IMG/VR virus record: IMGVR_UViG_3300026519_000003
Coordinates: 1-46,847 of that record
DNA from: a virus
Direction: 5' to 3' (one strand)
Length of the DNA stretch: 46,847 bases
The translations under genes and the position numbers were made by a program. Below the pieces are notes generated by a model. It worked only from the letters and a program-made list of their open reading frames with translations. It was not told the DNA's origin and searched no databases. Shown in pieces: positions 28,501 through 46,847 of the stretch; within the stretch, counting starts at the first letter, position 1; each line of letters starts with the position of its first letter.

Positions 28501-28532
28501 TCGCCTGACGCCACAACAACAGGAGCAAAGCA

Positions 28533-28892: not shown

Positions 28893-28918
28893 CGAGCCAG
28901 ATCAACCGGAGATAAACA

Positions 28919-29101: not shown

Positions 29102-29107
29102 CCGAAC

Positions 29108-29135
29108 AGCGCCCGGCATGTGTCGGGCGCTTTTT
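29108..29135 (+). terminator. Intrinsic terminator or attenuator after capsid genes
   Basis: AGCGCCCG (29108-29115), an 8-base loop and CGGGCGCT (29124-29131) form an 8-bp stem followed by TTTTT. It sits seven bases after the previous stop inside the structural operon, so it probably lowers expression of tail genes relative to capsid genes. Confidence 0.82.
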
Positions 29136-29150
29136 CAGGAGCGCAACGGT

Positions 29151-29366: not shown

Positions 29367-29617
29367 TGCTCGACAAGAACAGGCACTACATTCGCATCGT
29401 CGGCGAGACTGAGTACGGTCACGCATTCGAGCAAGACGGGATCATGTACGACGCGGCCGGGAAGCCGTGCAAGAAGCAGACAAAGGACGGAGCAAAGGCG
29501 CTCCGCGCCAAGATGAAGGAGTTGGAGCAGAGCCTCAAGGACGCCGAAGACGCGATCAGCGGCGAGGGTGCCGGTGATGACGGCAGCGCCGAAAGCGAAG
29601 AAGCCGGCAAAGGCTGA
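29366..29617 (+). CDS. Small hypothetical protein with acidic tail
   Basis: The 83-residue product has a short beta-like start (YIRIVGETEYGHAFEQDGIM), a basic helix (KALRAKMKELEQSLKDAE) and a Gly/Asp/Glu-rich tail. No family is recognised. It ends two bases before the connector gene. Confidence 0.55.
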   Translation: MLDKNRHYIRIVGETEYGHAFEQDGIMYDAAGKPCKKQTKDGAKALRAKMKELEQSLKDAEDAISGEGAGDDGSAESEEAGKG

Positions 29618-29619
29618 CG

Positions 29620-30297: not shown

Positions 30298-32381
30298 TGG
30301 CCTGGCGGGCCGTATCCTTTCAGCTTGGCGGCGGCCTCGATGTCGTCACTCCGGCCGACAGCATGCCGCCCGGCCGCGTCATTGGTGCGAGCAACTACGA
30401 GCCGGACGACCAAGGCGGATACCGCAGGATTCAGGGGTTCGAGCGGTTCAGCGGCAAACCGTCACCGTCAGAGGCGTCATTCTGGACGGTCGAGTTCTCA
30501 TCCGGCACAAGCGCATTTGTCGATGGAGAGACGATTACCGGCGGAACCAGTGGCGCGTCCGGCAAGGTTCTCTACTCATCGGTTACTGCTGGCGGATTCC
30601 CTACATCCGACGCGGCGGGCTTTGTCGTGTTCGGAGACATAGCCGGGGCATTCCAGCCCGGCGAGCAGCTTCTATCAGGCGCGACAGTGAGGGCGATCTC
30701 CAGCACCACACAGGCCGAGAACCGCGATGTCACGGGGAACGACTACGCCATGCTGCGCGATCTCGCTATCGCGGAGCGCAGGGCAGGCATTGGCGCAGTT
30801 CCAGGCAGCGGGCCGATCCGTGGCGTGTTTGTCTCGCGCAAGGGGGACACGATCTATGCCGTGCGCGACAACATCGCGGGGACAGCCGGGGTGATCCACT
30901 ACAGCACCCCGGCGGGCTGGGCTGCGCTTCCGCTTGGGGAGTCTCTGGCGTTCACCGGCGGCACGGATGCCTTCGTAGAGGGGGACACCGTCACCGGCGG
31001 CACCAGCGGCGCGACCGGCGTCCTGTCGGCGGCCGGCGTCACATCCGGGGCATTCACCGGCGGCGATGCGGCCGGGACGCTGTACCTGACGAGCGCCACC
31101 GGCACATTCCAGTCCGGCGAGACGATCTCCGGCTCCCAGGGTGGATCAGCTACCGCTGCCGGGGCGCAGGCGGCCACGGCGCTTCCGCCCGGAGGTCGGT
31201 ATGAGTTCATTGAGCACAACTTCGACGGCTCCGCTGACAGATACTTCGTATTCGGCGCGAACGGAACCGGAAGGGCGATCAGATTCAACCTGTCCGAGTT
31301 CGCCATGATCCACATCACCGGCCTCACTGATGCCAACGACAAGCCGGAGCATGTCGAGGCGCACAAGCAACACCTGTTCTTGTCGGCTGACGAATCGCTG
31401 TTCGCATCGAGCATCAACAACCCGATGGAATACGACGCCATAACGGACGCAGCAGAGTTCGCCACCGGCGACAGGATCGTGGCGATCAACCGGCTGACGG
31501 GCGGCGTTCTTGCGGTGCATTGCCGCGACAGCGCGTATATCCTCTATGGCGACGACAGCACAAACTTCGACATGCAGCCCTATGCAGAGGGGCGCGGGAT
31601 GATCGAGTGGTCGCTGCAAAACGCGCCGGTGCCGACCTACATGGACGACAGGGGCATCCATCAAATGACCGCGACGCAGGCGTTCGGCGACTTCGAGATC
31701 AAGTCGGCATCGAGCTATATCGACCCGTTCCTGCTGACCTACCGCGACTCGGTCGTTGAGTCGGTGCGCGTCAAAGGCAAGAACCAGTATCGCCTGTTCA
31801 TGATCGACGGCTCCTTCATCATTGGGAAAGTGATGCCAGACCTGTCGATCCAGTTTATGCCGTGCTCATACGGCAAGGTGGTTCGCGTGGCATCCAGCGG
31901 CTCAACGCCGAGCCACGGGGAGATCACGGTATTCGGGAGCGATGACGGCTTCGTGTACCGGGCGGACAAGGGCGGCGCGTTCGATGACAAGAAAATCACT
32001 GCCTACATCCGCCTGGCGTTCACAAACTGCCGCACTCCGCTGGTGAACAAGGCATTCAGGAAGTTCAGGATGCAGGTTGACGCAGTTGACCAGCCGGTCA
32101 TGACCTACTCCTTTGATCTTTCGTTCGGCGCAACAGACATCCCGTCTGCCGCGCTGCTTCCTATCGCAGGCGACAATATCCGCGTCACTGGTGGGTATTG
32201 GGGCGAGGTGACATGGGGGGATTTCATCTGGGGCGGGCAGCCGGTAGGCGAGGCAGAGGGATACCTTGACGGAACCGGGTACAATATCAGCATGATGATC
32301 CGGTCTGAGTCGATGAACCAGCCCGAGCACACGATCAAGAGCATGACGCTGTACTACAACCCCCGGAGGCTGAAACGATAA
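30297..32381 (+). CDS. Tail nozzle protein with two inserted repeat domains
   Basis: The 694-residue protein starts MAWRAVSFQLGGGLDVVTPA, like podoviral tail-nozzle (tail tubular B type) proteins, and contains a beta-propeller-like centre (EHVEAHKQHLFLSADESLFA, GDRIVAINRLTGGVLAVHCR). Near residues 60-125 and 215-300 are two copies of a module with GxTITGGTSGATG, FxxGD and FxxGE motifs that look like surface-exposed beta domains. It should form the tail tube end and DNA gate; the inserted modules could contact the fibres or the host. It lies directly upstream of the S74 fibre. Confidence 0.78.
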   Translation: MAWRAVSFQLGGGLDVVTPADSMPPGRVIGASNYEPDDQGGYRRIQGFERFSGKPSPSEASFWTVEFSSGTSAFVDGETITGGTSGASGKVLYSSVTAGGFPTSDAAGFVVFGDIAGAFQPGEQLLSGATVRAISSTTQAENRDVTGNDYAMLRDLAIAERRAGIGAVPGSGPIRGVFVSRKGDTIYAVRDNIAGTAGVIHYSTPAGWAALPLGESLAFTGGTDAFVEGDTVTGGTSGATGVLSAAGVTSGAFTGGDAAGTLYLTSATGTFQSGETISGSQGGSATAAGAQAATALPPGGRYEFIEHNFDGSADRYFVFGANGTGRAIRFNLSEFAMIHITGLTDANDKPEHVEAHKQHLFLSADESLFASSINNPMEYDAITDAAEFATGDRIVAINRLTGGVLAVHCRDSAYILYGDDSTNFDMQPYAEGRGMIEWSLQNAPVPTYMDDRGIHQMTATQAFGDFEIKSASSYIDPFLLTYRDSVVESVRVKGKNQYRLFMIDGSFIIGKVMPDLSIQFMPCSYGKVVRVASSGSTPSHGEITVFGSDDGFVYRADKGGAFDDKKITAYIRLAFTNCRTPLVNKAFRKFRMQVDAVDQPVMTYSFDLSFGATDIPSAALLPIAGDNIRVTGGYWGEVTWGDFIWGGQPVGEAEGYLDGTGYNISMMIRSESMNQPEHTIKSMTLYYNPRRLKR

Positions 32382-33784
32382 TGGCGAACAACTACTTCAA
32401 CCACAGCATTTACCGCGTTCCTGATGGGATCAGGGCTGTCGCCGACCATATCAACAATGTGGCCGATGAGATTGCCGCCGGGTTCGACAAACTTCCAGCC
32501 GAGAACGAGCTAAAGCAGGGGCGCGCAAACTACGCGACCGACACCGGGACGGCGAACAACTATGTCATCACGCTGAGCTACACGCCGACGCTGACCGCCG
32601 GGCTTGCGGTGTCGTTCCAGGCTGCAAACACGAACACCGGCCCGTCAACACTGAATGTCAACGGCCTTGGCCCAAAGGAGATCAGATCGAACAGCGGTAC
32701 GCCAATGGTGGCCGGGCAGATCACGGCCGGGCAGATTCTCGAACTGCGGTATGACGGCGCAGCGTTCCGCGTCATGGCGACCGACATTCCTGTCGCCGCG
32801 ATCAAGCAGATATACGAGAGCAACCCGAACACCAATGTATTCACGGATGCGGAGAAGGCCAAGCTATCAGGCATCGAGGCTGGCGCAACAGCAGACATGA
32901 CGCCCGCTGAGATCAAAACGGCCTACGAAAGCAACGCCAACACCAACGCCTTCACCGACGGCGAGAAGCTGAAGCTAAGCGGCATTGAGACTGGCGCAAC
33001 TGCGGATATGACTCCGGTAGAGATCAAAACCGCCTACGAAAGCAACATCGATACCAACGCCTTCACGGATGCGGAAAAGGCAAAGCTGGCCAGCGTGGCC
33101 GCAGGTGCGAACAACTACTCTCACCCTTCCTATATCGGCGATGACATTGCCATAAACATCGGCCCGCTTGGGAATGCGGCAGTAATAAGCCAGATCACAC
33201 TGTCACTGAACACCGACCTACAGGGGCATGTCACATCGGCCTCAGCGACCACGGCAACACGAAACATCACCCCGGCGAACATCGGGGCGATCCCGGCTTC
33301 TGGTGGCGCGGTGAGCGGAAGCCTATCATTCAGCGACAACAAGGGGATCAGCCTTGGCTCGACCTATGGTTCGCCGCCGATCATATATGGCGACGCATCC
33401 GGCCGGCTTGTGATGAAGTCATCGCAAGGGTTGATCCGCATGGTCGATTCAGCGAGCGCGGTAAAAGTGGAGTTCAACCTGTCAACAGGCACAGGGACGG
33501 CGGCCGACTGGATCGCGACATCCGATGAGCGGCTGAAAAGCGATATCGAGCTGATTGAATCACCGATTGAGCGCATAAAGAAGATCAAGGGCGTCACTTT
33601 CTACATGAAGGGCAGGGACGGAAGGAAGACCGGCGTCATTGCGCAAGATGTCCTGAGCGCGCTACCGGAGGCGGTTGTCAAAGGAACTGACGGCTATCTT
33701 GCGGTATCATACGGGGCAATGATTGGCCTCGTAATTGAGGCGATCAAGGAGATCGAAGCGAATATGACGAGAGGCGCAGCATGA
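32381..33784 (+). CDS. Tail fibre with tandem repeats and S74 chaperone
   Basis: The 467-residue protein starts MANNYFNHSIYRV, a likely attachment domain. Residues 141-244 hold about two and a half copies of a 37-residue unit (YESNxNTNxFTDxEK, then KLSGIExGATADMTP), common in fibre shafts. A beta region follows, and the C-terminus from residue 375 is an S74 intramolecular chaperone: ATSDERLKSDI with the Ser381/Lys386 dyad, then GVIAQDVLSALPEAV and a coil. It should trimerise and self-cleave like the fibre at 4101. The start shares one base with the nozzle stop (TAATG). Confidence 0.88.
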   Translation: MANNYFNHSIYRVPDGIRAVADHINNVADEIAAGFDKLPAENELKQGRANYATDTGTANNYVITLSYTPTLTAGLAVSFQAANTNTGPSTLNVNGLGPKEIRSNSGTPMVAGQITAGQILELRYDGAAFRVMATDIPVAAIKQIYESNPNTNVFTDAEKAKLSGIEAGATADMTPAEIKTAYESNANTNAFTDGEKLKLSGIETGATADMTPVEIKTAYESNIDTNAFTDAEKAKLASVAAGANNYSHPSYIGDDIAINIGPLGNAAVISQITLSLNTDLQGHVTSASATTATRNITPANIGAIPASGGAVSGSLSFSDNKGISLGSTYGSPPIIYGDASGRLVMKSSQGLIRMVDSASAVKVEFNLSTGTGTAADWIATSDERLKSDIELIESPIERIKKIKGVTFYMKGRDGRKTGVIAQDVLSALPEAVVKGTDGYLAVSYGAMIGLVIEAIKEIEANMTRGAA

Positions 33785-34185
33785 GAGTCAAGGTGGAGCA
33801 GGTAGTAAATTCGGCAGACGCGATTGGAAAGCTGAGTCGGCTTGAGCTTCCGATAGCAACAGCAGTGAAGGTGCGCAGGCTGTTCGCAGAGATGCGAGAA
33901 GTTGCGGAGTCGGCCGAGCGCCGCAGGATCGGCCTGGCAAGCAAGTACGGAACGCTGGATGGCGATGTGTTCAGGTTCGATGGTGATGCGGCCGAGAAGT
34001 TCTCATCGGAGTACGGGAAGGAGCTGCAACACGAAGTTGAGATCACCAACACCGTGAGCCTGGCCGATATCCCAGACGACGCGAGCATGTCTGCGGCAGA
34101 CATCGACGCTTTGTGGTGGATGCTGGGAGACGACGAATCACCGGAAAACCCGGAGGAACGCAGTGGCGCAGAACCAGCAGATTGA
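33781..34185 (+). CDS. Hypothetical protein, DUF1617-like
   Basis: The 134-residue product overlaps the fibre stop as ATGA. Its helical start (KVEQVVNSADAIGKLSRLEL, PIATAVKVRRLFAEMREVAE) and following KYGTLDGDVFRFDG turn recall DUF1617-type phage proteins of unknown role. The end is acidic. The position suggests a chaperone or accessory for internal virion proteins. Confidence 0.55.
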   Translation: MRVKVEQVVNSADAIGKLSRLELPIATAVKVRRLFAEMREVAESAERRRIGLASKYGTLDGDVFRFDGDAAEKFSSEYGKELQHEVEITNTVSLADIPDDASMSAADIDALWWMLGDDESPENPEERSGAEPAD

Positions 34186-35344
34186 CACCAGCGGCTACGG
34201 ATACCAGCCGGATGACTACAGCACGCAGCCATCCGGTGCCGTCGCTGCGCCGGTGTCCCAAGCCCAGGCGCCAGCCAGCATAACCGGAAACAAGACGGCC
34301 GGGTATCAGGGCTTTCAGGCTCCCACGATCCAAAGAGCGGCGGGCGTAATGTCCAAGGGATTCGATCTTGAGGCCCAGCAGGACAGCCAGAACGCATACG
34401 CGGTGAACCGCAAGTCAACGGTCGGAGGCCAGATGCAGGGACTTCTGAGCCGCACCAGCGACTACATGCGCGCCGCAGAGACTCGCGCAAAGCGCGCAAT
34501 GGCCAGGCGTGGCCTGACAAATTCATCAATCGCGGTCGGCGCAGCGCACGCGGCAGCCATCGATGCCGCCCTTCCCATCGCCCAGCAGGACGCAGGCACC
34601 TATGCCGGGATGCAGACCGAAACCATGCGGGGCGAGAACAGGGCGCGCGAGATCAACGCCGGCATGGAGCAGCAGACCAATCTGGCGCAGGCGCAGTACG
34701 AGGCCGACCAGGCAAAGACAAACGCCCTTGCCGCGCAGCAGGAGCGCGAGTTCAACGCAGACATGGGCTACAAGCAGCAGGTGACGAGCGCCGAGCTTGC
34801 CCAGAAGACCGGGATGTTCAATGCTGAACAGCAGAACAAGGCAGGGCTGCAATATGCCGAGTCACTGAACAAGGAAAGCTACGCGGTGCTTTCAACGAAG
34901 CTCAATGGCTACATGAAGCAGCTTGACAACGATCTGGCAATGCAGCTGAAGACACTGGAAAGCCAGTACCGTCTCGCAGAGAACGCAGACTCAGTGAACG
35001 GCGCGATCTATCAGGAGCTTGTTCGCGGCGTGTCTGATATTTTCATGAATGAGAATGATGTCGCAAAGGCGAAGGCAAAGGTCAAGCATCTGCTGAACGC
35101 CGCCGGGTATGAGTTGGACTTCGCGGGGGCCGCTCCTGCGGCGGCATTCACCGCCGGAGGGCAGCCGTCTCAGACGCAAGCACCAGTGCCGCCGCAAGGC
35201 CAACCGCAGGGGCCGGTGTCGCAGGGGCAGCCGCAGGGGCCGGTGTCTGGGCTTGTCCCGCAGTCAGGGCAGTTCCCGCCTGGAGGGCACATCGCCCCGC
35301 CTGGCGGAAGGTTCAACAAGTACGAGCTTGAGTACATGAAATGA
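34163..35344 (+). CDS. Internal virion (ejection) protein, Gln/Ala-rich
   Basis: I chose the GTG at 34163, six bases after GGAGG; it overlaps the previous gene by 23 bases. The 393-residue product is rich in Ala, Gln and Asn and mostly helical. Near residue 110-135 it has RRGLTNSSIAVGAAHAAAID, a segment typical of podoviral internal proteins that help form the DNA-ejection channel. The last 60 residues are Gln/Pro/Gly-rich with a repeated QGQPQGPVS unit, then a short KYELEYMK end. A GNAT-like gene follows with a four-base overlap. Confidence 0.7.
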   Translation: MAQNQQIDTSGYGYQPDDYSTQPSGAVAAPVSQAQAPASITGNKTAGYQGFQAPTIQRAAGVMSKGFDLEAQQDSQNAYAVNRKSTVGGQMQGLLSRTSDYMRAAETRAKRAMARRGLTNSSIAVGAAHAAAIDAALPIAQQDAGTYAGMQTETMRGENRAREINAGMEQQTNLAQAQYEADQAKTNALAAQQEREFNADMGYKQQVTSAELAQKTGMFNAEQQNKAGLQYAESLNKESYAVLSTKLNGYMKQLDNDLAMQLKTLESQYRLAENADSVNGAIYQELVRGVSDIFMNENDVAKAKAKVKHLLNAAGYELDFAGAAPAAAFTAGGQPSQTQAPVPPQGQPQGPVSQGQPQGPVSGLVPQSGQFPPGGHIAPPGGRFNKYELEYMK

Positions 35345-35787
35345 TTCGAGACGCCACCGCCGATGACTACGATCAGGTGGCAAGGCTTGCGGAAAGCGCA
35401 ATCAAGTCAAGCGCGCTGTCCGATATTGAGCCTGACGCAGCAACAATGATCCGCGTGTTCGCGGTGTGCTGCTCCACTGACAACGGGTTTGGCAAGGTGG
35501 TCGAAAGAAACGGAAAGATCACTGCCGCGATGTTTGCAGTGGTGACAAAGAATCAGGTTGGCGCGATGGTGGCGTCTGACCTGATGACAGCAGGAAGGCT
35601 CGGGATTGACCTTCTTCTCGATGAGTATCGGAAATGGGCTGTTTGCCGTGGCGCGAGCGTTGTGCTAGTGTCTAACATAAGCGGCAATACCCGCTACGAT
35701 AAACTTATTGAGGAGAAAGGTTATGAACAGATTGGCAAAATTTACAGGAGCGTTAATCATGGGCGCAGCAGTAGCCGTAGCGGCTGA
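35341..35787 (+). CDS. GNAT-fold acetyltransferase-like virion-module protein
   Basis: The 148-residue protein begins MIRDATADDYDQVARLAESA, a typical GNAT start. Strands and helices follow in GNAT order, with VSNISGNTRYDKLIEEKGYE near residue 115 as the usual C-terminal motif. The acetyl-CoA loop (R/QxxGxG/A) is not clearly present; GRLGIDLL may be the degenerate equivalent. GNAT-fold proteins between internal virion genes occur in many podoviruses and may be structural or assist assembly. The next gene starts 65 bases before this one ends. Confidence 0.72.
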   Translation: MIRDATADDYDQVARLAESAIKSSALSDIEPDAATMIRVFAVCCSTDNGFGKVVERNGKITAAMFAVVTKNQVGAMVASDLMTAGRLGIDLLLDEYRKWAVCRGASVVLVSNISGNTRYDKLIEEKGYEQIGKIYRSVNHGRSSSRSG

Positions 35788-36481
35788 TGTACTTTGGACG
35801 GCCGTCGCCTCGGCGGCAACAACGAAGATCGTCACCAAGGTGGCAAAGAAGATCGGCATGTCAGACGACCTCGCCTCGGTTGTTGGCGCGGTCACTGGCG
35901 TTGCCGCAGGCGGAGCCGCGTGGGGCGGGGCGAGCAAGGCGCTTGGCCTTGGCGCAGACACCGCGAAGGCAGCGTCCGACGCAACGAGGCTGGCTGACGC
36001 TGGCGCGAGCGTTGCAGACCCGTCGGTCGCGGCGGATGTTATCGGCAGCGCTGAGTCAACCGGATCGGCGGCAGGCGGATCGGCAGGCGTATCGGCTGGC
36101 GGCGCGCCTAGCGGAGCCGGCGGAGGGCTGCTGTCTCGCGCTGGGAGCGCGTTCAAGGACATCGGGGCGGGAGCCGTGAGCGGGGCTGCGCAGGGATACA
36201 TTCAGGGCAGCATCCAGCAGGACATCGCTGATCAGCGCATCCGCGAGCAGAAGCGCCTTGAGGAGATCGAGAATGCGCGCATCAAGGCGTGGCAGGAATC
36301 GGCGGGCAATCTGCCGCCAAGAGCAATGCGAAACTTCCAGGCCCCTCCGCTCGGGCCGTACCCTGGCCAAATGGGCGAATTTCAAGGAGTAACCTATCCT
36401 GCCGGGCAGGGCGGGCAGAACCCCGGGCAGCCGCTCATCAATATGCCGAGCATCGTAAAACCGGGGCTGTTGAGCCGATAA
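35723..36481 (+). CDS. Internal virion protein, Ala/Gly-rich
   Basis: The ATG at 35723, with GAGGAGAAAGG just upstream, lies inside the GNAT gene in another frame; the strong ribosome site supports the 65-base overlap. The 252-residue product has a hydrophobic N-terminus (FTGALIMGAAVAVAADVLW), then long Ala/Gly/Ser-rich stretches and a basic/acidic helix (IREQKRLEEIENARIKAWQE), and ends Pro/Gly-rich. It probably inserts into membranes and is one of the ejected internal proteins. No family is recognised with certainty. Confidence 0.65.
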   Translation: MNRLAKFTGALIMGAAVAVAADVLWTAVASAATTKIVTKVAKKIGMSDDLASVVGAVTGVAAGGAAWGGASKALGLGADTAKAASDATRLADAGASVADPSVAADVIGSAESTGSAAGGSAGVSAGGAPSGAGGGLLSRAGSAFKDIGAGAVSGAAQGYIQGSIQQDIADQRIREQKRLEEIENARIKAWQESAGNLPPRAMRNFQAPPLGPYPGQMGEFQGVTYPAGQGGQNPGQPLINMPSIVKPGLLSR

Positions 36482-36493
36482 CAGGAGGAAGAC

Positions 36494-36994
36494 ATGGGAC
36501 TACTTATGACAGCAGGCGCACAAAAGCCCGATCCGATGAATGGCGACATGGCCGCCGCCCCATCCGATGCTGAGATCGCGGGCGGAATGCAGGCCGAGCC
36601 TGGCGGCAGCGCCGATGTAGGCGAGATTGAGAAGCGCGCGTTCAAGTATGCCTATGGCGAGAAGTTCGACACGCTTCTCGCCATGTTCAAGGAGAACGGA
36701 GCCGAGAATTTCGCAAAATCAATGGCCGTTGCAGTGAATGGGGCGCTCAAGAACGCCGGGGAGATGACGCACGAGCAGGCAGCAGAAGTCGGAATGAAGC
36801 TGTACCTTGCGCTGCTTGAGGACATCATCACATCCGATGTGGTGCCTGGCATCACTGCCGAGCAGGTATCGCAGGCGCTGCCGATGACGCTGCGCATGTA
36901 TGCCGAATCGCACCCTGATGTGTCCGAGCAGGACATGCAGGCGCTCATGACTGAAATCGAGAAGCGCGCGAAGGGCGCTGTCGCTGGAGGCTGA
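36494..36994 (+). CDS. Small internal virion-module protein
   Basis: The 166-residue product starts after ACAGGAGGAAGAC. The first 45 residues are Ala/Pro/Gly-rich; the rest forms a compact helical domain (FKYAYGEKFDTLLAMFKENG, AEVGMKLYLALLEDI). No family is recognised. Its place between ejection-protein genes suggests an internal virion or assembly role. Confidence 0.6.
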   Translation: MGLLMTAGAQKPDPMNGDMAAAPSDAEIAGGMQAEPGGSADVGEIEKRAFKYAYGEKFDTLLAMFKENGAENFAKSMAVAVNGALKNAGEMTHEQAAEVGMKLYLALLEDIITSDVVPGITAEQVSQALPMTLRMYAESHPDVSEQDMQALMTEIEKRAKGAVAGG

Positions 36995-36998
36995 TCCG

Positions 36999-37871
36999 AT
37001 GGGCCTTCTCAAGTACGCTGTAGCCGGGGCGCTGAAAGGCGGGGCCGATACCTACATCGACCTGCGGAAGGAGGAGCGAGCGGCAGAGCAGCGCGCGATC
37101 GAAGCCGAGCGCGAGCAGTCGATCTGGGAGAAGCGCCAGCAGCGCCTCGATGAGATCGAAAGGGAGAGGCACACCGAAAGGACGGCCGAAGAGCAGTCGA
37201 TCTGGGAAAAGCGCCAGCAGCGCCTTGCCGAGATCGAGAGAGAGAAGGATAAGCGCAAACAAGAGGCTGAGATCGAAAGCTACCGCAAGAAGAAGGAGAT
37301 CGACCTTTCGTTCAAAGAGGCGGAAGGCGACGGAGACAGCCTTGGCGGCGAGTACCACGGATATAAGAGCCGGGCCGAGTTTGACCGCGTGCTGTCGTCT
37401 CTCGCAAGATCATCGGTCGGATACTCTGATAATGTCGGGTTCAACACGGAGGAGGACAAAAAGAAGTACACCGAGATCGTGCGCGCAGCCAAGAAGAAGT
37501 ATCTTGACAGGGTTGGGTCAGGCGACGCGAACTACACCCTGGCTGACGCCGTTTCCGAGATCGCCGGATCGAAGGAGGACGAGCTTGCCGGGCGCGCGGC
37601 CGGCGAGAGCATCCAGCGCTACGCCAAGAAGCGCGCGAAGTCGTACCTTGCAGAGAAGACAGGCATCATCGATAAGGCGCTCGGGGTCGTCGGCATTGGC
37701 GATAACGACGCGCCAGACCCTGCCGTCGTCGAGGAAGCATACAGGCGGAAAGCCATTGAGGCGCGCGCAGAGGCGAAGCGTCTGATAGAATCACGCAGGG
37801 GCGACGGCGAGTTCCGCGCCCGCGTACTATCAAAGCTGAGGGCCGAAGGAATCCCCACCGACGGCCTCTGA
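36999..37871 (+). CDS. Coiled-coil internal virion protein with tandem repeat
   Basis: The 290-residue product contains two copies of a charged coil unit, EQSIWEKRQQRL-x-EIERE (about residues 38-56 and 66-84), then a globular helical region (residues 110-230) and a basic C-terminal helix. Its start MGLLKYAVAGALKGGADTYI is hydrophobic and amphipathic, suggesting membrane contact. It is probably part of the ejection apparatus. It is followed by 49 bases and then the first giant gene. Confidence 0.65.
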   Translation: MGLLKYAVAGALKGGADTYIDLRKEERAAEQRAIEAEREQSIWEKRQQRLDEIERERHTERTAEEQSIWEKRQQRLAEIEREKDKRKQEAEIESYRKKKEIDLSFKEAEGDGDSLGGEYHGYKSRAEFDRVLSSLARSSVGYSDNVGFNTEEDKKKYTEIVRAAKKKYLDRVGSGDANYTLADAVSEIAGSKEDELAGRAAGESIQRYAKKRAKSYLAEKTGIIDKALGVVGIGDNDAPDPAVVEEAYRRKAIEARAEAKRLIESRRGDGEFRARVLSKLRAEGIPTDGL

Positions 37872-37920: not shown

Positions 37921-40900
37921 ATGGCGGGAAACGACGATCTTTCGCGGCTGGATGAGATTCTATCCAGCGATCCTCTCACCATGTCCTACAGCAGCGACAA
38001 AGACCTTTCGTCGCTCGATGCAATCCTTTCATCGCCACCAATCCCTGAACCACGGGGCGACGGCGAGCTTTCGCCGCAGACCGTGGCGCAGCCCGCAGAG
38101 GCAGATCAGCAGCTACAACCCGACAGGCCCATCGGCAGAGCGATCGACTCAGTGCCGGGCATGACGCCTGACGATATGCCGCTCACAAACAGGGAGAAAA
38201 TGCTTGAGCGCGTCGAGATCGCCGGAGCGCAGACTGCCGCCGGCCTGGGGCAGTGGCTTGCAAACACGAAAGCAGACCCGTCAGGCGTTGAGAAAACAGC
38301 AAGGTATGTCTCTGAGCGCCGGATGGATGCCGGCGCAATCCTCCCCCCGCTCGTCAACTACCTGAGCGATCTTGCTGTTCAGGGCTGGGGTGACATCGCG
38401 GAGGCGGCGCATCCGGGGGCGCGGGAGGAGATCAACGACGCGGCCGCAGAAGTGCATCGAGCGGCGACAGACCTTCTCGGATCGAAGGAGCTTGCCTATA
38501 GCGGCAGCACGGGCGAGAAAATCGGATGGCAGGTCGCCGAGGCGATCACAAACATGGCCCCCATGCTCACCGTCGGCGCGATCACGAAGACGCGAGGCGC
38601 ACCGCTTGGGATTATGGCGATGCAGGTCGGCGGGCAGGCATACGCCGACGCATACGAGAAGACAAAAGACCCTGGCCTGGCGAAAGAGGCCGCGATCTTC
38701 AAGTCGCTCGCCGAGGTGATCCCAGAGACGATCCCGGCTGGCGTGCTGCTTCGCCCCATCGGATCGAATTGGGCGAAGCGCGTCATTGACGCCACTGCCG
38801 GGGAAGGCGCTCAGGAGGCGCTGACCGAGTTCCTGACCACCGTCTATGATGACGCAAGACTCGGTGACATGACCCTTTCCGAGGCGCTGCGCAATGTGGA
38901 TTGGGCGGCTGTTGCCGAGGCCGGCGGGCTTGGCGCGCTGGTCGGCGGCACGCTTGCGGCAGGGATCGGCGCTGGCGACTATCTGATCACGCGGAAGCGG
39001 AAGGAAGCCGAGGGCGAAGCGAGAGCGGCCGAGGAGGAGCGCATAAAGGCATGGGAGGCCAGGCTCAAGGACGACATCAGGAGCGGATGGGAGGCGTGGA
39101 AGGCGCAGAAGGAGGCGCAGGCAAGGGCGGAAGGCCCGTGGTGGGAAGACCCGAGGCGCAGAGGGAAGGACGAATACCGCGAATGGTACGAGGCGAACAC
39201 CGGGAAGCCTTGGGATGACGGCCCCGTAGGCCCGGACGCCGGCCCGTCCCCCGCCGGCCCCGGCCCTGACACCGGCCCCGGCCCGGACGCAGGCCCGCCA
39301 CCCGCCGGCCATGCCGCGGCCCCGGCTGGAGAGATCAGCTTCGATGTGCTCCCAGCCGAAGAAAACAAGTCGGCAATCGATGACGAACTGTCGGCTGCCG
39401 AACAGCTGGCAAACGCCAGTCGCGAGGCGGCGCAGCAGCCCCAGGCTGACAGCGGCGACGCGGCGCATGGGGGCATGTACTCAGGCGATATCAGCCCAAC
39501 CGGGCTTGACAATTCCACGCTTGAGCCAGACATAGACGCCATTGAGCGCGCGCGCCAGTTCAGCCAGCGGGAGCAGCAGGAGCAGCAGGAGCGGCAGGAA
39601 CAGCAGGGGCAGGGCGGGGATGGCCGGCAAGACGGCGATGGATTCCAGCGCCAGCCTGGAGACGAGCAGGATGTGATCTACCAGCCACCGCCAGAGCCAG
39701 AGACGGAGGCATCCGCTCGCGCAGCAAAGGCGGCATCAGAATCCGCAACAAGCCCGGAGTCTCCAGTACCTGAGCCGACGGAGGCCCAGAAGTCCGCCGG
39801 CAACTACAAGAAAGGCAAGATTCGGTTCTCTGGCCTCGATGTATCGATAGAGAACCCTGCGGGCACCATCCGCCGCCCGGAATGGCCGCCGCTCGCCCAC
39901 CACTACGGGTATATCCGGCGCACCGAAGGCGCGGACGGAGAGCAGATCGACGCATTCATCAACGCGCGCAATGCGGACGAGGGCGCACCCGTGTTCGTCA
40001 TCGACCAAGCTGATGAAACCGGCGGGTTCGACGAGCACAAAGCGATGCTCGGGTTCAATACCGAGGACGAAGCCCTGCGGGCGTACCACGAAAACTACTC
40101 TCCAGGCTCACCAGAGCCGATAGGCGTGCGCAGGTTCGCCACCGCGAGGCAGTTCAAGGACTGGCTGACAAGCTCAGAATCGAACAGCATCCCGGCGTCC
40201 GCAGGCTCACCGATGTTTTCGAGCGCGATGCCGAAAGAGGCGCGATCAGCGCTCGCGAGGCCGGCCGAGCACAAGAGGTTCATTCGCGGATCGCTCGGCT
40301 CCGCATATCTCACCCCTGACGGGTTCATTGCGCCGAAGGGCGTGGCCCGTAGCGTGTCGGGCAATACGCGCCCTGACGACCTTGGCGCGGTCATTGTCGA
40401 GACAAAGAAGAAATCAGGGAAGAGCCACATCTACATCACCGTGCGGCCTGGGCGGAAGCTGACGCTCGATCAGTACAACGCGATTGCCGAGGCGAAAAAG
40501 CGGATGCCGAAGTCGGTCATCCACTACGGCGTCAAGTTCAGCAACACGACACGCCCGACAGAGTACCGCAGGGTGACCTTGCAGCGGCTTCTGTCAAGAA
40601 ACACCTACGAGTTTGACCCCCACCGCCATGAGCCGACAAAGGCGGAGATCGCGCGCGCTGACGCCAGAGCCGAGAAGGCCGAGAAGGCAAGGGTGGCGGC
40701 GTCTTCGCGGATGACGAGGAACTGGTGGAAGTCAGCGCCAGCAAAGGGCGATCTGATCACATTCATCAGGGCGCACGGCGGAATCAACACGGACATCGAA
40801 AGCGATGTGCGCGGCCGGCTCAAGCACCTTGACCAGCAAAACCGGGCAGTTGGCCTTCCGAGCATTGAGCAGCGCGGCGGGAAGGGCATGACGCTCGATG

Positions 40901-43311
40901 ATCTTGGTGTGCTGCTCGCCGAAAACGGATACATCAAGCGCGGCGAGATCTGGAACGGCGTCGATAAGACGGATGTCCTCGATCTTCTCTGGCGCGCCGA
41001 GGATGAAGTCGTGCAGCCGGAATACGGCGACATGGCGGACGAGATCGCGCGCGAGAGGATGGAGCGCGAGCTTGAGGCGCAGAAGGAGGAGGCCGACCGC
41101 CTGTTCATGGAGGGCGAGAAGGAACGCATCGAGCTTGGCGCGACCGAGCGCGAAATGTACGGGCCTTCGCCGGATGAGATCGCCCAGGCCGAGGCGGACG
41201 CAGCAGCCGCATCGGAATACATGGGCGACATGACCCCGGCGGATTGGGCCGAGGTGATCGCGGTACTGACCCCAGAGGAAAGGGCCATCCTTGGCGGCTC
41301 TCAGGAGCGCGAGGAGCTTTCCAGGCTGATGATGATCGCGTCCGGCCTGAATGAAGACCGGATGATGGGGATACTGGAAAAGGACATCACGGACGCGGAG
41401 GTGATCGAGCTTCTGCGGGACATGATCGACGATGAATCTGGAGTTCCAAGTGAAAAGAGAAATCGCAAGGCAAAAGGCCAGAAGGCTGAAGATGGCAAAG
41501 CTGGTGAAGAAGGCGCTAAGAATCAAGGCGATAGCCGACCTGAGAGCAAGGAAGCGGAAGGCTTCGAGCTGACAAGCGAGGAAAGCGAGGCGCAGAAGAT
41601 CAGGAACGAGGAGCTGCGCCGCGACAAGGAGCGGTCAGGGCAGGGAGATGTCCCGCTTGTCCAGTCTGGTGACGACCTGTTCGCAAACGGCGGGAGGCTG
41701 GAGCCAGACCTGTTCGAGAACGACGCGCAGCAGGCGAATGACATCGCGCAGATCAGCGGCGAGGTGATCGACGCTGATGCCCCTGTGTTCGTGTTCGACC
41801 TGTACCGCCCGAAGGACGGCGTGAAGATCGTTGATTCCGACTACATCAAGTCGGTGGTCATCCGCGACCGGCAAACGCTGTCAGAGGCCGCGGATGTCGC
41901 AGCAAGGGAGGGCGGCGTGCCCGTGCTCGCACTCAAGATCGAGGGCGCATCGACGGTTACAGACAAGGCCGCCGAGGTTTCGCGGATCATGGCGAACAAG
42001 GAGCAGGGCGAACCTGTCGGCGACAGGCCGAAAAGAATATCAGATATCGAGGAGCGAGTTGCTGAAGCGAAGAAGCGCGGCGCGCAAATGACGAAGGAGG
42101 ATATGAGGGCGGTAATGTCAATGCGAGAGGCGCTATTCTGGAACCCGAACAAGCCAGTCAAGGCGGCAGACAAGGCAGCAGAGCAGGGCGTACTGTCCCC
42201 AGAGAAGGCGGCAGAGATCATTCAGTCATGGGAAACCGAGATCGACCGCATGGCGTCAGATGGTGTCGGCAACGGGAAGACCGTCCTGTCTCTCTTCGAC
42301 GCGACAGGAGAATGGGCGCGACCGTGGGCGGATGCCGGGTACGATGTCCGCAAGATCGACCTGAAAACAGATGGCGTCGATGTGATGGACATCGACAGGC
42401 AGTGGCTGATAGATCACGGGATGGATAATGTCGATGTTGTCCTCGCCGCGTGCCCATGCACCGACTTCGCGTCATCCGGGGCGCGCGACTGGAAAGACAC
42501 CAAGTCATCGAGGGTGAAGGGCGGGAAGGATGACACAGGGATCACGCACAAGAGCATTGACCTTGTGAATCACACCCTGGCAATCATAGACTTACTTCAG
42601 CCGTCGATCTGGGCGATTGAGAACCCGGTGGGGCGGATCACGAAGATCACCGACACGCCGGGCGCGAGGTATGCCTTCGACCCGCACCACTTCGGCGACC
42701 CGTACACGAAGAAAACGATCCTATACGGCAGATTCAACACCGACCTTCCGGTTGCCAATGTGGCCCCAGAGCAAGGTTCCCTGATGGTGAAGCTGTCAGG
42801 ATCAGACGAGGACAATGCCGGGCTTCGGTCAGTGACGCCACGCGGGTTTGCGATGGCGTTCTTCATGGCAAACAACCATGAAGCATACCCGAGGTGGAAG
42901 GCGGCCGCAGATGAGTATGTCGAGCTTTTGCCAGAGAAGGAAAGAAAGAAGCGCGGCGGCGCAATGCGCGCGGCGTTCACCATCGGGGCGTCCGGCAAGA
43001 AGTTGAGCGCACCGCTGCCGCAGCCGCTTGAGCGAGCATACCTTGACGGGGCCGGAGCCGCAGAGGAAGATTGGAGGCTATCGGATTCAGTGCCAACCGA
43101 GAAGGACGCTGCGGACGCCATGATCGAGATCGTCGAGTCTGGAGAGCTTGGCGAACAGCGGTCAGTCATGGAGGCGATTGGCGAGAGGCTGTACGCATCC
43201 AGAAAGAAGGCGTCGAGAAGGGGGCGCAACAAGATCGGAAGTGAAGTTGCCCCGGTTGATGAGCGAATCGAGAAGATCAGCGAAATTGTGAATTGCGAGA
43301 AGAAGACATGA
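37921..43311 (+). CDS. Giant polyvalent virion protein 1 (pyrophosphatase-like and methylase-like domains)
   Basis: This 1796-residue protein is modular. Residues 180-355 hold a hydrophobic, glycine-rich segment typical of ejection proteins. A Pro/Gly (437-463) and Gln-rich (547-566) linker follow. Residues 629-755 match the InPase domain of phage polyvalent proteins: KGKIRFSGLDVSIENPAG, HHYGYIRRTEGADGEQIDAF, then FDEHKAMLGF. Residues 764-905 and 943-1025 are further polyvalent-type regions (DLITFIRAHGGI). Residues 1450-1657 are a C5-cytosine-methylase-like domain: VLSLFDATGEWARPW (SAM loop, near 1455), ACPCTDF (catalytic Cys1513), and IENPVG at 1567. By family knowledge such proteins travel with the DNA and counter host defences; here that is inference. 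GAGGG precedes the ATG, and the stop overlaps the next giant gene as ATGA. Confidence 0.85.
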   Translation: MAGNDDLSRLDEILSSDPLTMSYSSDKDLSSLDAILSSPPIPEPRGDGELSPQTVAQPAEADQQLQPDRPIGRAIDSVPGMTPDDMPLTNREKMLERVEIAGAQTAAGLGQWLANTKADPSGVEKTARYVSERRMDAGAILPPLVNYLSDLAVQGWGDIAEAAHPGAREEINDAAAEVHRAATDLLGSKELAYSGSTGEKIGWQVAEAITNMAPMLTVGAITKTRGAPLGIMAMQVGGQAYADAYEKTKDPGLAKEAAIFKSLAEVIPETIPAGVLLRPIGSNWAKRVIDATAGEGAQEALTEFLTTVYDDARLGDMTLSEALRNVDWAAVAEAGGLGALVGGTLAAGIGAGDYLITRKRKEAEGEARAAEEERIKAWEARLKDDIRSGWEAWKAQKEAQARAEGPWWEDPRRRGKDEYREWYEANTGKPWDDGPVGPDAGPSPAGPGPDTGPGPDAGPPPAGHAAAPAGEISFDVLPAEENKSAIDDELSAAEQLANASREAAQQPQADSGDAAHGGMYSGDISPTGLDNSTLEPDIDAIERARQFSQREQQEQQERQEQQGQGGDGRQDGDGFQRQPGDEQDVIYQPPPEPETEASARAAKAASESATSPESPVPEPTEAQKSAGNYKKGKIRFSGLDVSIENPAGTIRRPEWPPLAHHYGYIRRTEGADGEQIDAFINARNADEGAPVFVIDQADETGGFDEHKAMLGFNTEDEALRAYHENYSPGSPEPIGVRRFATARQFKDWLTSSESNSIPASAGSPMFSSAMPKEARSALARPAEHKRFIRGSLGSAYLTPDGFIAPKGVARSVSGNTRPDDLGAVIVETKKKSGKSHIYITVRPGRKLTLDQYNAIAEAKKRMPKSVIHYGVKFSNTTRPTEYRRVTLQRLLSRNTYEFDPHRHEPTKAEIARADARAEKAEKARVAASSRMTRNWWKSAPAKGDLITFIRAHGGINTDIESDVRGRLKHLDQQNRAVGLPSIEQRGGKGMTLDDLGVLLAENGYIKRGEIWNGVDKTDVLDLLWRAEDEVVQPEYGDMADEIARERMERELEAQKEEADRLFMEGEKERIELGATEREMYGPSPDEIAQAEADAAAASEYMGDMTPADWAEVIAVLTPEERAILGGSQEREELSRLMMIASGLNEDRMMGILEKDITDAEVIELLRDMIDDESGVPSEKRNRKAKGQKAEDGKAGEEGAKNQGDSRPESKEAEGFELTSEESEAQKIRNEELRRDKERSGQGDVPLVQSGDDLFANGGRLEPDLFENDAQQANDIAQISGEVIDADAPVFVFDLYRPKDGVKIVDSDYIKSVVIRDRQTLSEAADVAAREGGVPVLALKIEGASTVTDKAAEVSRIMANKEQGEPVGDRPKRISDIEERVAEAKKRGAQMTKEDMRAVMSMREALFWNPNKPVKAADKAAEQGVLSPEKAAEIIQSWETEIDRMASDGVGNGKTVLSLFDATGEWARPWADAGYDVRKIDLKTDGVDVMDIDRQWLIDHGMDNVDVVLAACPCTDFASSGARDWKDTKSSRVKGGKDDTGITHKSIDLVNHTLAIIDLLQPSIWAIENPVGRITKITDTPGARYAFDPHHFGDPYTKKTILYGRFNTDLPVANVAPEQGSLMVKLSGSDEDNAGLRSVTPRGFAMAFFMANNHEAYPRWKAAADEYVELLPEKERKKRGGAMRAAFTIGASGKKLSAPLPQPLERAYLDGAGAAEEDWRLSDSVPTEKDAADAMIEIVESGELGEQRSVMEAIGERLYASRKKASRRGRNKIGSEVAPVDERIEKISEIVNCEKKT

Positions 43312-46300
43312 AGAAAGGGTGCATAAAGGCGAAGGCCAAGATCGACGACAAGGACAGAGGGCTTTTCGATTCGATATATCAGGACCTTGTCGCAAGCGGA
43401 ATCCCTGAGACTGATGCGTACACGCAGGCCGCAGAACTCGCCATTGAGACGCTGCTCGATGAGAGAAACGCGGTGATCGAGGAGATCGAGCCGTCGGCGG
43501 TTGTCACCATAGAGGACGCCCTGCGCCCAGAGTCATCATTGAGGCTTGCGGCAGGAAAGCGGAGCGCGCCGGCGAGGCTGTTTGAGGTGATCGCGTCAAT
43601 GCCCGACGCCTTCCAGTCGCGCACGAGCGACAAGAAAGACCTATCCGGAATCGTGGACGACATGCTGGGGGACTACACCTTGCCCAGCGGCAAGAAGGCA
43701 TACTTCGCCATGAATGACGGCATATTCATTGTCCGCAACACCACTGGCGGCGGCGTCGTGCCGTCAGAGATCGTCAAGATACACAACGCAAACACGGACA
43801 CGCCGTTCGTCAGAATCTTCACCCAGCGCGGCGAGCGCGGGAGCGCGGCATATCAGGCGGCGATGGCCTGGGCGCACAACAACAAGAAGCGGCTGGTGCC
43901 TGACCCGTCTGGAATATCGCGCGTCAACAGGCTGCGGAGAACCGAGGCCATGATCAGCAGCATGCTGCGCTTTGGCACCGCAATGCACCTTGAGCCGCAT
44001 CGCGACCAGTTCGTCGGCGCGCTGTCAGCCGAGGACTATGCGAAGCTCGCGCTCGGTGAGCGTACCGGCGACGGCGGGTATTCCGACACCACCGGCGAGA
44101 TTGAGATAGGGGAGAAGCTGGACAAGCTGAAGGCAGACCTGTGGGATTCAGCGGACTACCATCGGTCGCTCCACAATTTGCTGATCGCAAGTTATATGCT
44201 AACATCAAAGCGAATCAAGCAGGCACTGGAGAGTGGATTCTATGAAAACGAAATCGAAGAACACGGCGTTTTTGGTATTGGCCGCACTACATACCGCAGG
44301 TATCACGCGGTCAAATCCGCGCTTCGCGGCGACGAGTCTGCGGGGATTCATGAACTTGGCTGGTTCCGCGATAAGCAGCCACCGGCAGATGTCATCGATG
44401 CCGAGCTACTGGAGGACAGCGTTGATCGGAGCATTGACGCTTTCAAGAAAAAGTTTGGCGGAGATCGCGCGATCGACTTCATCCTCTATTCGCGCAAACC
44501 TGGGCGTGGAGTCGGGGCGGCAAAGGTTGAGGGCTGGCTCAGGAAAACGATAGACAGCCTCGACCCGGAAATATCGAAGAATATTTTCATCCACGACAAG
44601 CCGTCGGACTACGCGCCGTGGGTGGCCTCTGATGCTGGGGGCATGTACTTCAACGGAGAGGTGCATATATTCGCCAGCAACATCGAGACGCGGGAAGACG
44701 CGGAGGTCGTCATCGCCCACGAGGTTGTCGGACACCTTGGGCTTGAGGGGCTTCTTGGCAGGAAGCGCTTCATGCAGTTGATCAGGGAGGTCAACAGGAT
44801 GAAGGCCGAGGGGAACAAGGCTGTCATCGATGTACTGAAGGAGATCAGGGTCAACTATGTCGATGAGAACGGAGACTACAACCTTGACGCCACGCAGGAG
44901 GCGCGCGAGGTACTTGCCCACATCGCTCAGAACCGGGCGAGCCAGTCGCTTCTGAACAAAATATGGGAGTGGATCAAGGAAGCGCTGCTGAAGATCGGCC
45001 TTTTCAAGAACGGCGACCCAGACACCGACGCGATATATTCTCTCATCAAGGAGGCCGCGAACCATGTCAGGGGGCGGCCGGCTCGCCCGGAAAGCCCGCT
45101 GTTTGACGGGTATGCCGATGTTGTCGCGGCGTCTCGTGCGTCGATCCGCGAGGATGAGGGCGCGGCGCAGATGGGCTTGTTCGACAATATCGACAAGCTG
45201 TCTGATGAGCCGGCGGCGCGCGACGCGGCCATAGAGTCCGCCAGGGTGAGGTACAGGAACCTTCCAATCGGCGAGATGAAGGTCGGCATCGCCCGGGCAT
45301 CAACGCCGGAGGAGGCGCTGCATATCGTGGCCGGCATCAGGAAGCGCGCAACCGAGGTTGTGCTTGCCGTCGTGCTCGATGAGAACGATAAAGTCCTGAC
45401 CGTCATCAGGCACTCCAGCGGCACGGCAAACTCATCATCGCTCGACCATGTGAAGCTCGCAGGCTCCATCGCCTCAGTTGACGGGGCAAAGGGGTACTGG
45501 CTGGCTCACAATCACCCTTCTGGAGAATCAGAGCCTTCTTCTGCGGATATTGGCGTGACGAAGCGCGTCAACAGGCTGCTTTCTGCCGTCGGGATATACA
45601 CCAAGGGGCACATAGTCGTCGGCGCAAATGGGCGCGGCGTCGCGTTTCATGCTGTCAGCGGATCAGACCCGGCAACAATCGGCATTCCGTATGGCGAAAG
45701 CGGGGTGAAGATAGAGGCATTCAAGGCGGCGAGGAAAAAGAGTGTCGTTGTGACCGAGGTCATGGCGGCGATGGCACCGCGATACGAGACGACCATCGGC
45801 TCCCCGGCCGACGCAAAAAAAGTCGCAAGCAAGATCGGGAAAGAGGGAATCATCCTGCTCAGCAACCGCTCCCATGTTGCGGGATTCTGGCCTGTCTCCG
45901 GGGCCGATGTGGAGAACATCAGGGAGTCGGGCGCTCTGCGCGGCATCCTGCGGGCGATCCACGAGTCGAACGCCACGGCCGCGATTATCCTGACCGACAA
46001 TCAGAAGGCGGCAAACAAGCTGGCGGCCGCCCTCAATGGAAGCGTCAATGTCCTTGACAGGATAGACCCGAATACCGTGCGCAGCGCAGCAGAGTCAGGT
46101 GCGCCGCCCGACCCAAACCTTGAGCCTTCATGGTCGATTTCTCGCAGATCACCGTCGCCAGGCGGCGGCATTCAGGCTTTGGCATACCGATCTGGCGTCG
46201 CCGAAAAGAGCGCGTCAGCACTCGATGAGGCGATGGGTGCCGGGGCAAGGGAGGTGTCGCGCAGGAAGAACGGGAGCGTAACTGTCGCCGAGTACGCGGT

Positions 46301-46847
46301 CGCATCACTGCCTGCGGTGACGGAGGACGCGGTCATCATGAAGTCAGGTGGCGCGTACTACTACGAGAGCCTGGACACCGTTGACGAGCCGGCAGGCCCA
46401 TTTGCTACCGAGCGCGACGCGCGCAACCATGCAAGGGCGATGGCCGGGTATGATCCGATCCGTCGCGGCGACCTGATGAACAGCGATGGAATCACCATCG
46501 TGCCGATTCGCATGCGAGAGGCAGGCGCATCGTCGTCTGTGTCTGTCGGGATTCCGCCGGCGTCTCTCGGCGTTGGTGAGCGCATCGGCGTGGGCATCGC
46601 CATCGCAAGACTGGCGCGCGATGCTGGTGCTGGCGTTCTTCGCGGAGGGATTCTGTCTGACCCTGTTGTGTCTGCCGCGCTAGAGGCGAGCGGGTACACA
46701 ATGACGGTCGCGTCCGGCGCTGTATCGGCAAGCCCGCCGTCATTCAGCAGGCGGGCGAAGACATCCGCAAAGGCCGAAAAGATCAAGCGCGCCTCAGCCA
46801 TGCCGAGCGGGAAAGGGCAGAAGGTCGAGTATCTGGAGAGCAAATGG
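43308..46847 (+). CDS. Giant polyvalent virion protein 2, N-terminal part (zincin and JAMM domains)
   Basis: The gene starts with ATGA overlapping giant protein 1 and stays open to the window end, continuing in frame at position 2 to stop at 4114 (2508 residues in all). A zincin metalloprotease motif HEVVGH lies at residues 471-476, with the following LGLEGLLG. Residues 650-770 form a RadC/JAMM-type domain: HNHPSGESEPSSAD places His734, His736 and Asp747 for zinc. Further on, an AAIILTDNQKAANKL segment and a Ser/Gly-rich linker precede the Gly-rich region at the joint. Two metalloprotease-like domains in one virion protein suggest self-processing or cleavage of host proteins (or removal of conjugated groups) after injection. 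Activities are inferred from motifs. Confidence 0.85.
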   Translation, partial: MKKGCIKAKAKIDDKDRGLFDSIYQDLVASGIPETDAYTQAAELAIETLLDERNAVIEEIEPSAVVTIEDALRPESSLRLAAGKRSAPARLFEVIASMPDAFQSRTSDKKDLSGIVDDMLGDYTLPSGKKAYFAMNDGIFIVRNTTGGGVVPSEIVKIHNANTDTPFVRIFTQRGERGSAAYQAAMAWAHNNKKRLVPDPSGISRVNRLRRTEAMISSMLRFGTAMHLEPHRDQFVGALSAEDYAKLALGERTGDGGYSDTTGEIEIGEKLDKLKADLWDSADYHRSLHNLLIASYMLTSKRIKQALESGFYENEIEEHGVFGIGRTTYRRYHAVKSALRGDESAGIHELGWFRDKQPPADVIDAELLEDSVDRSIDAFKKKFGGDRAIDFILYSRKPGRGVGAAKVEGWLRKTIDSLDPEISKNIFIHDKPSDYAPWVASDAGGMYFNGEVHIFASNIETREDAEVVIAHEVVGHLGLEGLLGRKRFMQLIREVNRMKAEGNKAVIDVLKEIRVNYVDENGDYNLDATQEAREVLAHIAQNRASQSLLNKIWEWIKEALLKIGLFKNGDPDTDAIYSLIKEAANHVRGRPARPESPLFDGYADVVAASRASIREDEGAAQMGLFDNIDKLSDEPAARDAAIESARVRYRNLPIGEMKVGIARASTPEEALHIVAGIRKRATEVVLAVVLDENDKVLTVIRHSSGTANSSSLDHVKLAGSIASVDGAKGYWLAHNHPSGESEPSSADIGVTKRVNRLLSAVGIYTKGHIVVGANGRGVAFHAVSGSDPATIGIPYGESGVKIEAFKAARKKSVVVTEVMAAMAPRYETTIGSPADAKKVASKIGKEGIILLSNRSHVAGFWPVSGADVENIRESGALRGILRAIHESNATAAIILTDNQKAANKLAAALNGSVNVLDRIDPNTVRSAAESGAPPDPNLEPSWSISRRSPSPGGGIQALAYRSGVAEKSASALDEAMGAGAREVSRRKNGSVTVAEYAVASLPAVTEDAVIMKSGGAYYYESLDTVDEPAGPFATERDARNHARAMAGYDPIRRGDLMNSDGITIVPIRMREAGASSSVSVGIPPASLGVGERIGVGIAIARLARDAGAGVLRGGILSDPVVSAALEASGYTMTVASGAVSASPPSFSRRAKTSAKAEKIKRASAMPSGKGQKVEYLESKW
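46721..46847. repeat. Terminal direct repeat, right copy (circular overlap)
   Basis: Identical to bases 1-127. See the left copy: the match closes the sequence into a 46,720-bp circle within the second giant gene. Confidence 0.9.

Follow-up and report, generated by a model that had tools for sequence, protein, structure and literature searches.

A compact cytosine-C5-methyltransferase-like domain within a giant polyvalent protein of a phage genome

The whole stretch of DNA analysed here, referred to as the window, is the IMG/VR record IMGVR_UViG_3300026519_000003 (positions 1 to 46,847, one strand). A giant protein encoded in the window, ORF1, contains a compact domain for which profile searches and a structural model support the fold of a cytosine-C5 methyltransferase, its catalytic Cys and Glu being preserved. 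ORF1 and the adjacent ORF2 together form a polyvalent locus, in which this domain would replace the adenine methylase and the helicase that are usual in DarB-type proteins.

Results

ORF1 and its domains

The original prediction had placed a protein of 1796 residues at 37921-43311, and the frame was indeed found to be open throughout: it starts with ATG and is free of internal stops over its full length. The positions of ORF1 and of the other features are given in Table 1. The InPase-like domain that had been read from the letters was recovered as a full-length match to PF18823 (profile positions 1-134 of 135; 124.7 bits against a cut-off of 26.8), and the InPase of the window scores 130.4 bits in a six-frame search. 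The same region of ORF1 also matches a PHROG family named DarB-like antirestriction (E = 1.1e-30). By tblastn, the leader region is related to the N-terminal part of the giants of two Vibrio phages, VvAW1 and 1.232.O, with identities of 35.6-38.7% and E-values between 3e-6 and 1e-9; by blastp, residues 212-331 match gp28 of 1.232.O with 35% identity (E = 5.6e-11). The NCBIfam search of ORF1 gave zero matches, and the Rfam and tRNA scans of the whole window were empty. The dinucleotide counts of the window (observed/expected: CG 1.17, GC 1.20) contain no depletion that would hint at a methylated motif, a result that is uninformative either way. As a separate observation, the profile of Nmad5 (nucleotide modification associated domain 5) reaches 24.3 bits at 14918-15565, short of its cut-off of 27, and this match could represent a member of a DNA modification pathway.

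Table 1. Features of the window discussed in the text
Feature	Position	Strand	Remarks
Late block upstream of ORF1: terminase, portal, capsid, tail, head-closure, tail fibre, small genes	21843..37871	+	Collinear with Vibrio phage 1.232.O
ORF1, polyvalent protein (N-terminal leader, InPase, C5-methyltransferase-like domain)	37921..43311	+	1796 aa
Leader region, residues about 191-331	38491..38913	+	tblastn and blastp matches to Vibrio phages VvAW1 and 1.232.O
InPase domain PF18823, residues 621-749	39781..40167	+	Pfam 124.7 bits, cut-off 26.8
Compact cytosine-C5-methyltransferase-like domain, residues 1449-1660	42265..42900	+	PHROG 757, AlphaFold model
Motif I-like FDATGEW, residues 1459-1465	42295..42315	+	Gly1463 in 80/80 rows
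Motif IV-like Pro-Cys-Thr, residues 1512-1514	42454..42462	+	Cys1513, predicted nucleophile, 80/80 rows
Motif VI-like Glu-Asn-Pro, residues 1567-1569	42619..42627	+	80/80 rows
YTKKT, residues 1595-1599, putative motif VIII equivalent	42703..42717	+	Lys1597 and Thr1599 in 80/80 rows
RSVTP, residues 1636-1640, putative motif X equivalent	42826..42840	+	Arg1636 and Ser1637 in 80/80 rows
ORF2, first part, LPD37 and RadC domains	43308..46847	+	ATG overlaps the ORF1 stop (ATGA); runs off the record end
ORF2, remainder, via the 127-base terminal repeat	1..4114	+	Joined length 2508 aa; C-terminal part virion-structural-like

Homology and fold of the methylase domain

PHROG 757, named 'DNA methyltransferase', covers residues 1451-1658 of ORF1 with an E-value of 8.9e-38, and PHROG 363 also matches ORF1 (E = 1.3e-4). 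The Pfam profile PF00145 (DNA_methylase) stays below its cut-off of 22 bits both for whole ORF1 (11.2 bits, E = 0.24) and for the cut-out domain (15 bits, E = 0.017). It was found at E ≤ 1 in 12 of the 12 aligned members, ORF1 included, with a best E-value of 3e-6. Because the PF00145 score is under the curated cut-off, the domain is named C5-methyltransferase-like and is regarded as a divergent branch. Taken alone, the Pfam result would lead to the verdict of a doubtful domain, and this verdict was overruled by the PHROG match, the structure, and the conservation within the family. The assignment of ORF1 as an adenine methylase was also considered and rejected, since such a domain is absent from the Pfam and PHROG matches.

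An AlphaFold model of the domain was built from 54 aligned sequences (mean pLDDT 84.8), superseding a first model with a pLDDT of 68. The Foldseek search of the PDB matched 42 chains at E ≤ 0.001, and all 42 carry the titles of DNA cytosine methyltransferases or their complexes. Superposition with a second aligner gave Z scores of 14.6 to DNMT3B/3A and 14.4 to M.HhaI; the superpositions extend over 188-191 residues with an rmsd of 3.1-3.5, and the identity to the best structures is 12-15%. Sequence profiles were also compared with the PDB sequences. The profile of the divergent set of the family (A3) matched 3lx6, 3me5, 3g7u, and M.HaeIII at E = 0.002-0.008, which are weak values in a match list that also contains coiled-coil chance matches; in these alignments the Cys and the Glu-Asn of the family fall on those of the cytosine methylases, in agreement with the structural result. 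The close-family profiles (A1 and A2) gave mostly coiled-coil chance matches in the same search. The second plasmid methylase (L111), tried as a bridge to the canonical enzymes, was too divergent, and hhalign found zero relation. As to the fold, the apparent cytosine methylase of the original prediction is thus borne out by the PHROG 757 match, the Z score of about 14.5, and the intact Cys and Glu.

Conserved residues and the size of the domain

The three motifs on which that prediction was based were located where it had them: FDATGEW at residues 1459-1465, ACPCTDF at residues 1510-1516 with Cys1513 within it, and IENPVG at residues 1566-1571. In the family alignment, all 80 rows agree at Gly1463, Pro1512, Cys1513, Glu1567, Asn1568, Pro1569, Lys1597, Thr1599, Arg1636, and Ser1637; the rows comprise 53 of the 62 IMG/VR loci, 21 of the 41 genome loci, five phage records, and ORF1. 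The IMG/VR loci omitted were eight presumed copies and one locus with stops; the 20 genome loci omitted were copies, frame-broken, or very divergent, and seven of the divergent ones enter A3. The invariance of Pro-Cys, Glu-Asn-Pro, and Lys-x-Thr is partly by construction, because the searches that retrieved the IMG/VR and genome loci used patterns containing Pro-Cys, Glu-Asn-Pro, or Lys-x-Thr, one pattern being sufficient for each locus. Arg1636 and Ser1637 were part of none of these patterns. Further, the five stand-alone phage proteins that were recovered by tblastn similarity, without the use of motifs, retain all of the invariant residues (5/5 aligned). In the divergent set A3, Cys, Glu, Lys, Thr, and Arg are kept in 30 of the 30 rows, and the Pro preceding the Cys is lost in three of them. 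Among the divergent small relatives, L103, L105, and L107 were observed to keep the catalytic Cys and to have lost the Pro preceding it.

In the textbook C5-methylases, motif VIII is QxRxR and motif X is GNS or GNA. We propose that YTKKT is the equivalent of motif VIII and that RSVTP is the equivalent of motif X, the latter on the basis of the span of the structural alignment. About 30 residues lie between YTKKTILYGRF and RSVTP. Because of this short distance between YTKKT and RSxTP, the large recognition domain is taken to be absent from the ORF1 methylase, and its sequence specificity would be short or relaxed. The domain resembles DNMT3A/3B, M.HhaI, and M.HaeIII in the fold, the Gly of motif I, the Pro-Cys of motif IV, and the Glu-Asn of motif VI, whereas it differs from them in its length of about 200 residues, in having Glu-Asn-Pro, YTKKT, and RSxTP where the usual later motifs would stand, and in its apparent lack of a large recognition domain. 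Most of the stand-alone relatives are about 180-255 aa long, and this size indicates, as far as the sequences go, that the compact form (~200 residues) is a complete methylase domain. It would then be a very compact cytosine methylase.

ORF2 and the gene neighbourhood

The first and last 127 bases of the record (1-127 and 46721-46847) are identical and constitute an exact direct terminal repeat; probably the record represents an entire genome that has been opened within ORF2. The C-terminal part of the joined ORF2 matches PHROG 22602 (E = 7.4e-83), a family named 'virion structural protein', gp123 of phi18:3 (28% over about 790 residues), whose record carries MS/MS evidence, and Pseudoalteromonas phage Y3 (32% over 900). 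The GP88 match in ORF2 is sub-threshold, and a HEVVGH stretch in ORF2 may mark a zincin-like peptidase. In the relatives L003/L016 and L029, the methylase and an ORF2-like C-terminal part are fused in one ORF. Thus, ORF1 and ORF2 are one giant in split form. Both proteins combine unrelated enzymatic domains (InPase and methylase in ORF1, LPD37 and RadC in ORF2), and ORF1 adjoins the virion genes; both features are those of polyvalent proteins.

From the terminase through the portal (33-36%), the capsid protein (47.6%), the adaptor, and the head-closure protein (32.6%) to the tail fibre, the late block matches 1.232.O in gene order. At the position equivalent to that of ORF1, 1.232.O encodes gp28 (3292 aa), which bears the annotation of an N-6 adenine-specific methylase and in which helicase, LPD38, and small methyltransferase domains were found, the last of them just under the cut-off. 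This protein shares the leader of ORF1 plus one region of ORF2. The leader is also present in VvAW1, whose DarB-like giant is the last gene of the head-tail block and carries an Eco57I-type methylase, a helicase, and LPD38. From the comparison with 1.232.O and VvAW1, it appears that the place, the leader, and some other parts are retained among related phages, which differ in the DNA-modifying part: another methylase with a helicase in 1.232.O and VvAW1, and the cytosine methylase in ORF1.

Distribution of the domain

Relatives of the domain were collected from IMG/VR (13 loci, then 62 loci), from one genome per bacterial or archaeal species (41 loci), from plasmids (262 records), and from phage records (1007 records). 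Among the matches listed for the phage records, taken evenly down the ranking, most are 25-30% identical, and the annotated ones are mostly small methylase or hypothetical genes. In IMG/VR, ORFs of 1300 aa or more hold the domain at 52 of the 62 loci (one of these with internal stops), and the remaining 10 loci have ORFs of 204-382 aa. The 41 genome loci consist of 7 giants, 13 forms of 293-435 aa, several of them plasmid-borne, and 21 smaller forms. A cultured phage, Pseudomonas phage 8P, carries the domain in its gp23 of 5145 aa. This gp23 is annotated as 'structural protein', a label given there with no basis stated, and a literature search at the level of titles found no published basis for it. 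The copy in gp23 is the closest to the ORF1 domain in the phage records (45-49%), and gp23 is one ORF, whereas two ORFs are found here.

The domains accompanying the methylase were surveyed with Pfam in 47 records, namely 46 giant-bearing IMG/VR records plus the record studied, six further giant loci (presumed copies or frame-broken) being omitted. LPD38 exceeded the cut-off in 17 records and InPase in 16, both being found in two, so that 31 of the 47 records have either of them. One of the LPD38-bearing giants additionally has an ART domain. In a tree of 80 domains, which was made by a quick method and has many weak branches, the giant label needs 6 changes as compared with 24.3 in shuffles. 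The mid-size forms, often plasmid-borne, are nested among the giants, and the small forms stand apart; the ORF1 domain pairs with L016 and, less firmly, with phage 8P. The survey and the tree together suggest that the domain is long-standing in giant phage proteins and that it is common to phages and plasmids.

Discussion

Comparison with known systems

The phage polyvalent proteins described previously (Iyer et al. 2017, PMC5512222) are like ORF1 and ORF2 in that they are giant and multi-domain, lie by late genes, and carry InPase, LPD37, and RadC. In both cases, domains are shared with plasmids. That survey restricts RadC to conjugative elements, whereas the RadC of ORF2 belongs to a protein encoded by a phage. 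The methylases described in the main text of the survey are adenine methylases, the word 'cytosine' occurring there only in a reference title, and an adenine methylase-helicase pair is proposed to methylate injected DNA (PMC5512222). In the literature searched, which was covered mostly by listing, no cytosine methylase in a polyvalent or virion protein was described; a cytosine methylase gene of a Roseobacter phage has been reported, for which, as is customary, a protective role against restriction was suggested (PMC6918029). Thus, polyvalent proteins and their InPase are already published, and we call the cytosine-C5 form of the polyvalent protein new, because the main text of the published account describes adenine methylases only; we also call it widespread.

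DarB of P1, VvAW1 gp01, 1.232.O gp28, and JC1 gp69 are like ORF1 in their location at the end of the head-tail block and in having a DNA methylase domain, and the N-terminal region of ORF1 is common to the VvAW1 and 1.232.O giants. The DarB-like giants have the other methylase type together with a helicase, whereas ORF1 has the C5-cytosine type without an SNF2 or ResIII helicase; the DarB combination of an adenine methylase and an SNF2-type helicase in one protein was found in ORF1 neither by Pfam nor by PHROG. JC1 gp69 is likened here by description, its sole link to ORF1 being the PHROG of DarB-like proteins sharing InPase. The stand-alone phage 'DNA methyltransferases' of PHROG 757 belong to the same family as the ORF1 domain and have the same invariant residues. 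They are, however, small and separate proteins, encoded, in the two regions inspected, beside a primase (ECO1230-10) and NinB (1.206.O), whereas the ORF1 domain lies inside a giant.

Proposed role and alternative explanations

We propose that the ORF1 and ORF2 proteins are made late, are packed into the head, and are ejected together with the phage genome. By means of S-adenosylmethionine and Cys1513, the domain would modify cytosines in the phage DNA as it enters, with a short or relaxed sequence preference, and this modification on entry would help the genome to pass host restriction; the InPase and the other domains would act on other targets. Because ORF1 is without a helicase, it may scan the entering genome slowly, and, if it scans DNA at all, it would do so in some other way, perhaps while the DNA passes ORF1. 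The probability of this explanation as a whole is put at about 0.5. The fold, the catalytic set, the architecture, and the gene position are computed results, and packaging, ejection, catalysis, target, and benefit are what we infer.

The gene position, together with mass spectrometry that detected relatives or similar giants in virions, suggests that ORF1 is packaged in the virion. The evidence consists of the late-block position, the leader shared with the DarB-like giants, the MS/MS record of phi18:3 gp123, and JC1 gp69, a DarB-like protein of 4515 aa that was found with 51 unique peptides in CsCl-purified virions of the podovirus JC1 (PMC9144972). From a methylase domain in an injected protein, we infer the methylation of the incoming DNA. 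Dar, the nearest analogue, protects only in cis (PMC12707154, PMC11109961). Several points tell against modification on entry: the sub-threshold score of PF00145, the little room apparently left for target recognition, the seemingly altered motifs VIII and X, and the absence of a helicase from ORF1. In addition, the mechanism of DarB itself is called undefined, and where darB plasmids countered restriction, the cause was located in the plasmid DNA and not in the protein (PMC11109961).

These points have to be weighed together with other readings. The main rival is an ordinary late methylase that modifies phage DNA after its replication in the cell that makes the progeny, so that the particles would already contain modified DNA, the packaging of the enzyme being incidental or absent. 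The ORF1 gene does lie in the late block, close relatives of 293-435 aa exist as separate genes that are nested among the giants and are in several cases plasmid-borne, and forms of about 230 aa are found beside primase or NinB genes, where injection plays no part. Nevertheless, the giant fusion is kept at 52 of the 62 IMG/VR loci, with InPase or LPD38 in 31 of the 47 records, and a late methylase would have no obvious gain from fusion with polyvalent domains; we consider this reading unlikely, although it carries real weight. A smaller chance is given to the loss of methylation, by which the domain would now serve the ejected protein as a module for DNA binding or for structure. The weak Pfam score, the altered motifs I, VIII, and X, and the minimal recognition region would suit such a module, and so would the accounts of DarB, in which the mechanism is called unclear or undefined and physical shielding is proposed (PMC12707154, PMC11109961). 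A binding module would, however, be expected to lose the nucleophile, whereas the Cys and the Glu are invariant in 80/80 rows and in the 5/5 stand-alone forms found without motifs.

It is quite improbable that the target is host DNA or RNA (for example, in host gene regulation or tRNA modification) instead of the phage genome. Several host-directed domains are indeed carried by polyvalent proteins, but the nearest folds are DNA cytosine methylases, and the place of the locus matches that of the DNA-acting DarB-like modules. The slightest chance of all is assigned to the transfer of a non-methyl group, or to 5-methylcytosine being a handle for further modification. Arg1636, which is invariant in the block proposed as motif X, and the sub-threshold Nmad5 match elsewhere in the record speak for this reading; against it, DNMT3A has Arg-Ser at the corresponding point and uses ordinary AdoMet. 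The idea of another transferred group comes from CmoX, a phage relative of the C5-methylases, which uses carboxy-SAM by means of an Arg that replaces Asn304 of M.HhaI (PMC12783734), but the equivalence of Arg1636 to Asn304 is only putative at the residue level.

Modification on entry may also extend beyond the present phage. Tentatively, and with somewhat less confidence than for ORF1 itself, we suggest that in many podovirus-like phages a head-packaged, ejected giant with a small cytosine-C5 methylase marks the genome during or just after entry, as a cytosine counterpart of DarB. If this is true, DNA methylation would be virion-borne and would precede the expression of any phage gene, and the phage DNA would be modified at entry and not in the previous infection, so that protection would be independent of the last host. 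A second chemistry, that of cytosine C5, would stand beside the adenine methylase-helicase giants, and the DarB-like places of related phages would be sites at which the DNA-modifying part is exchanged. The locus would also offer a clean test of how the ejected anti-restriction giants work.

Finally, this methylase was also observed as a gene of its own (~350 aa) on Pseudomonas and Acinetobacter plasmids (8734-9789 in L110, 8728-9786 in L111, and 8773-9837 in L112). The copies on the Pseudomonas plasmids adjoin replication, partition, mobC, or LPD7-protein genes.
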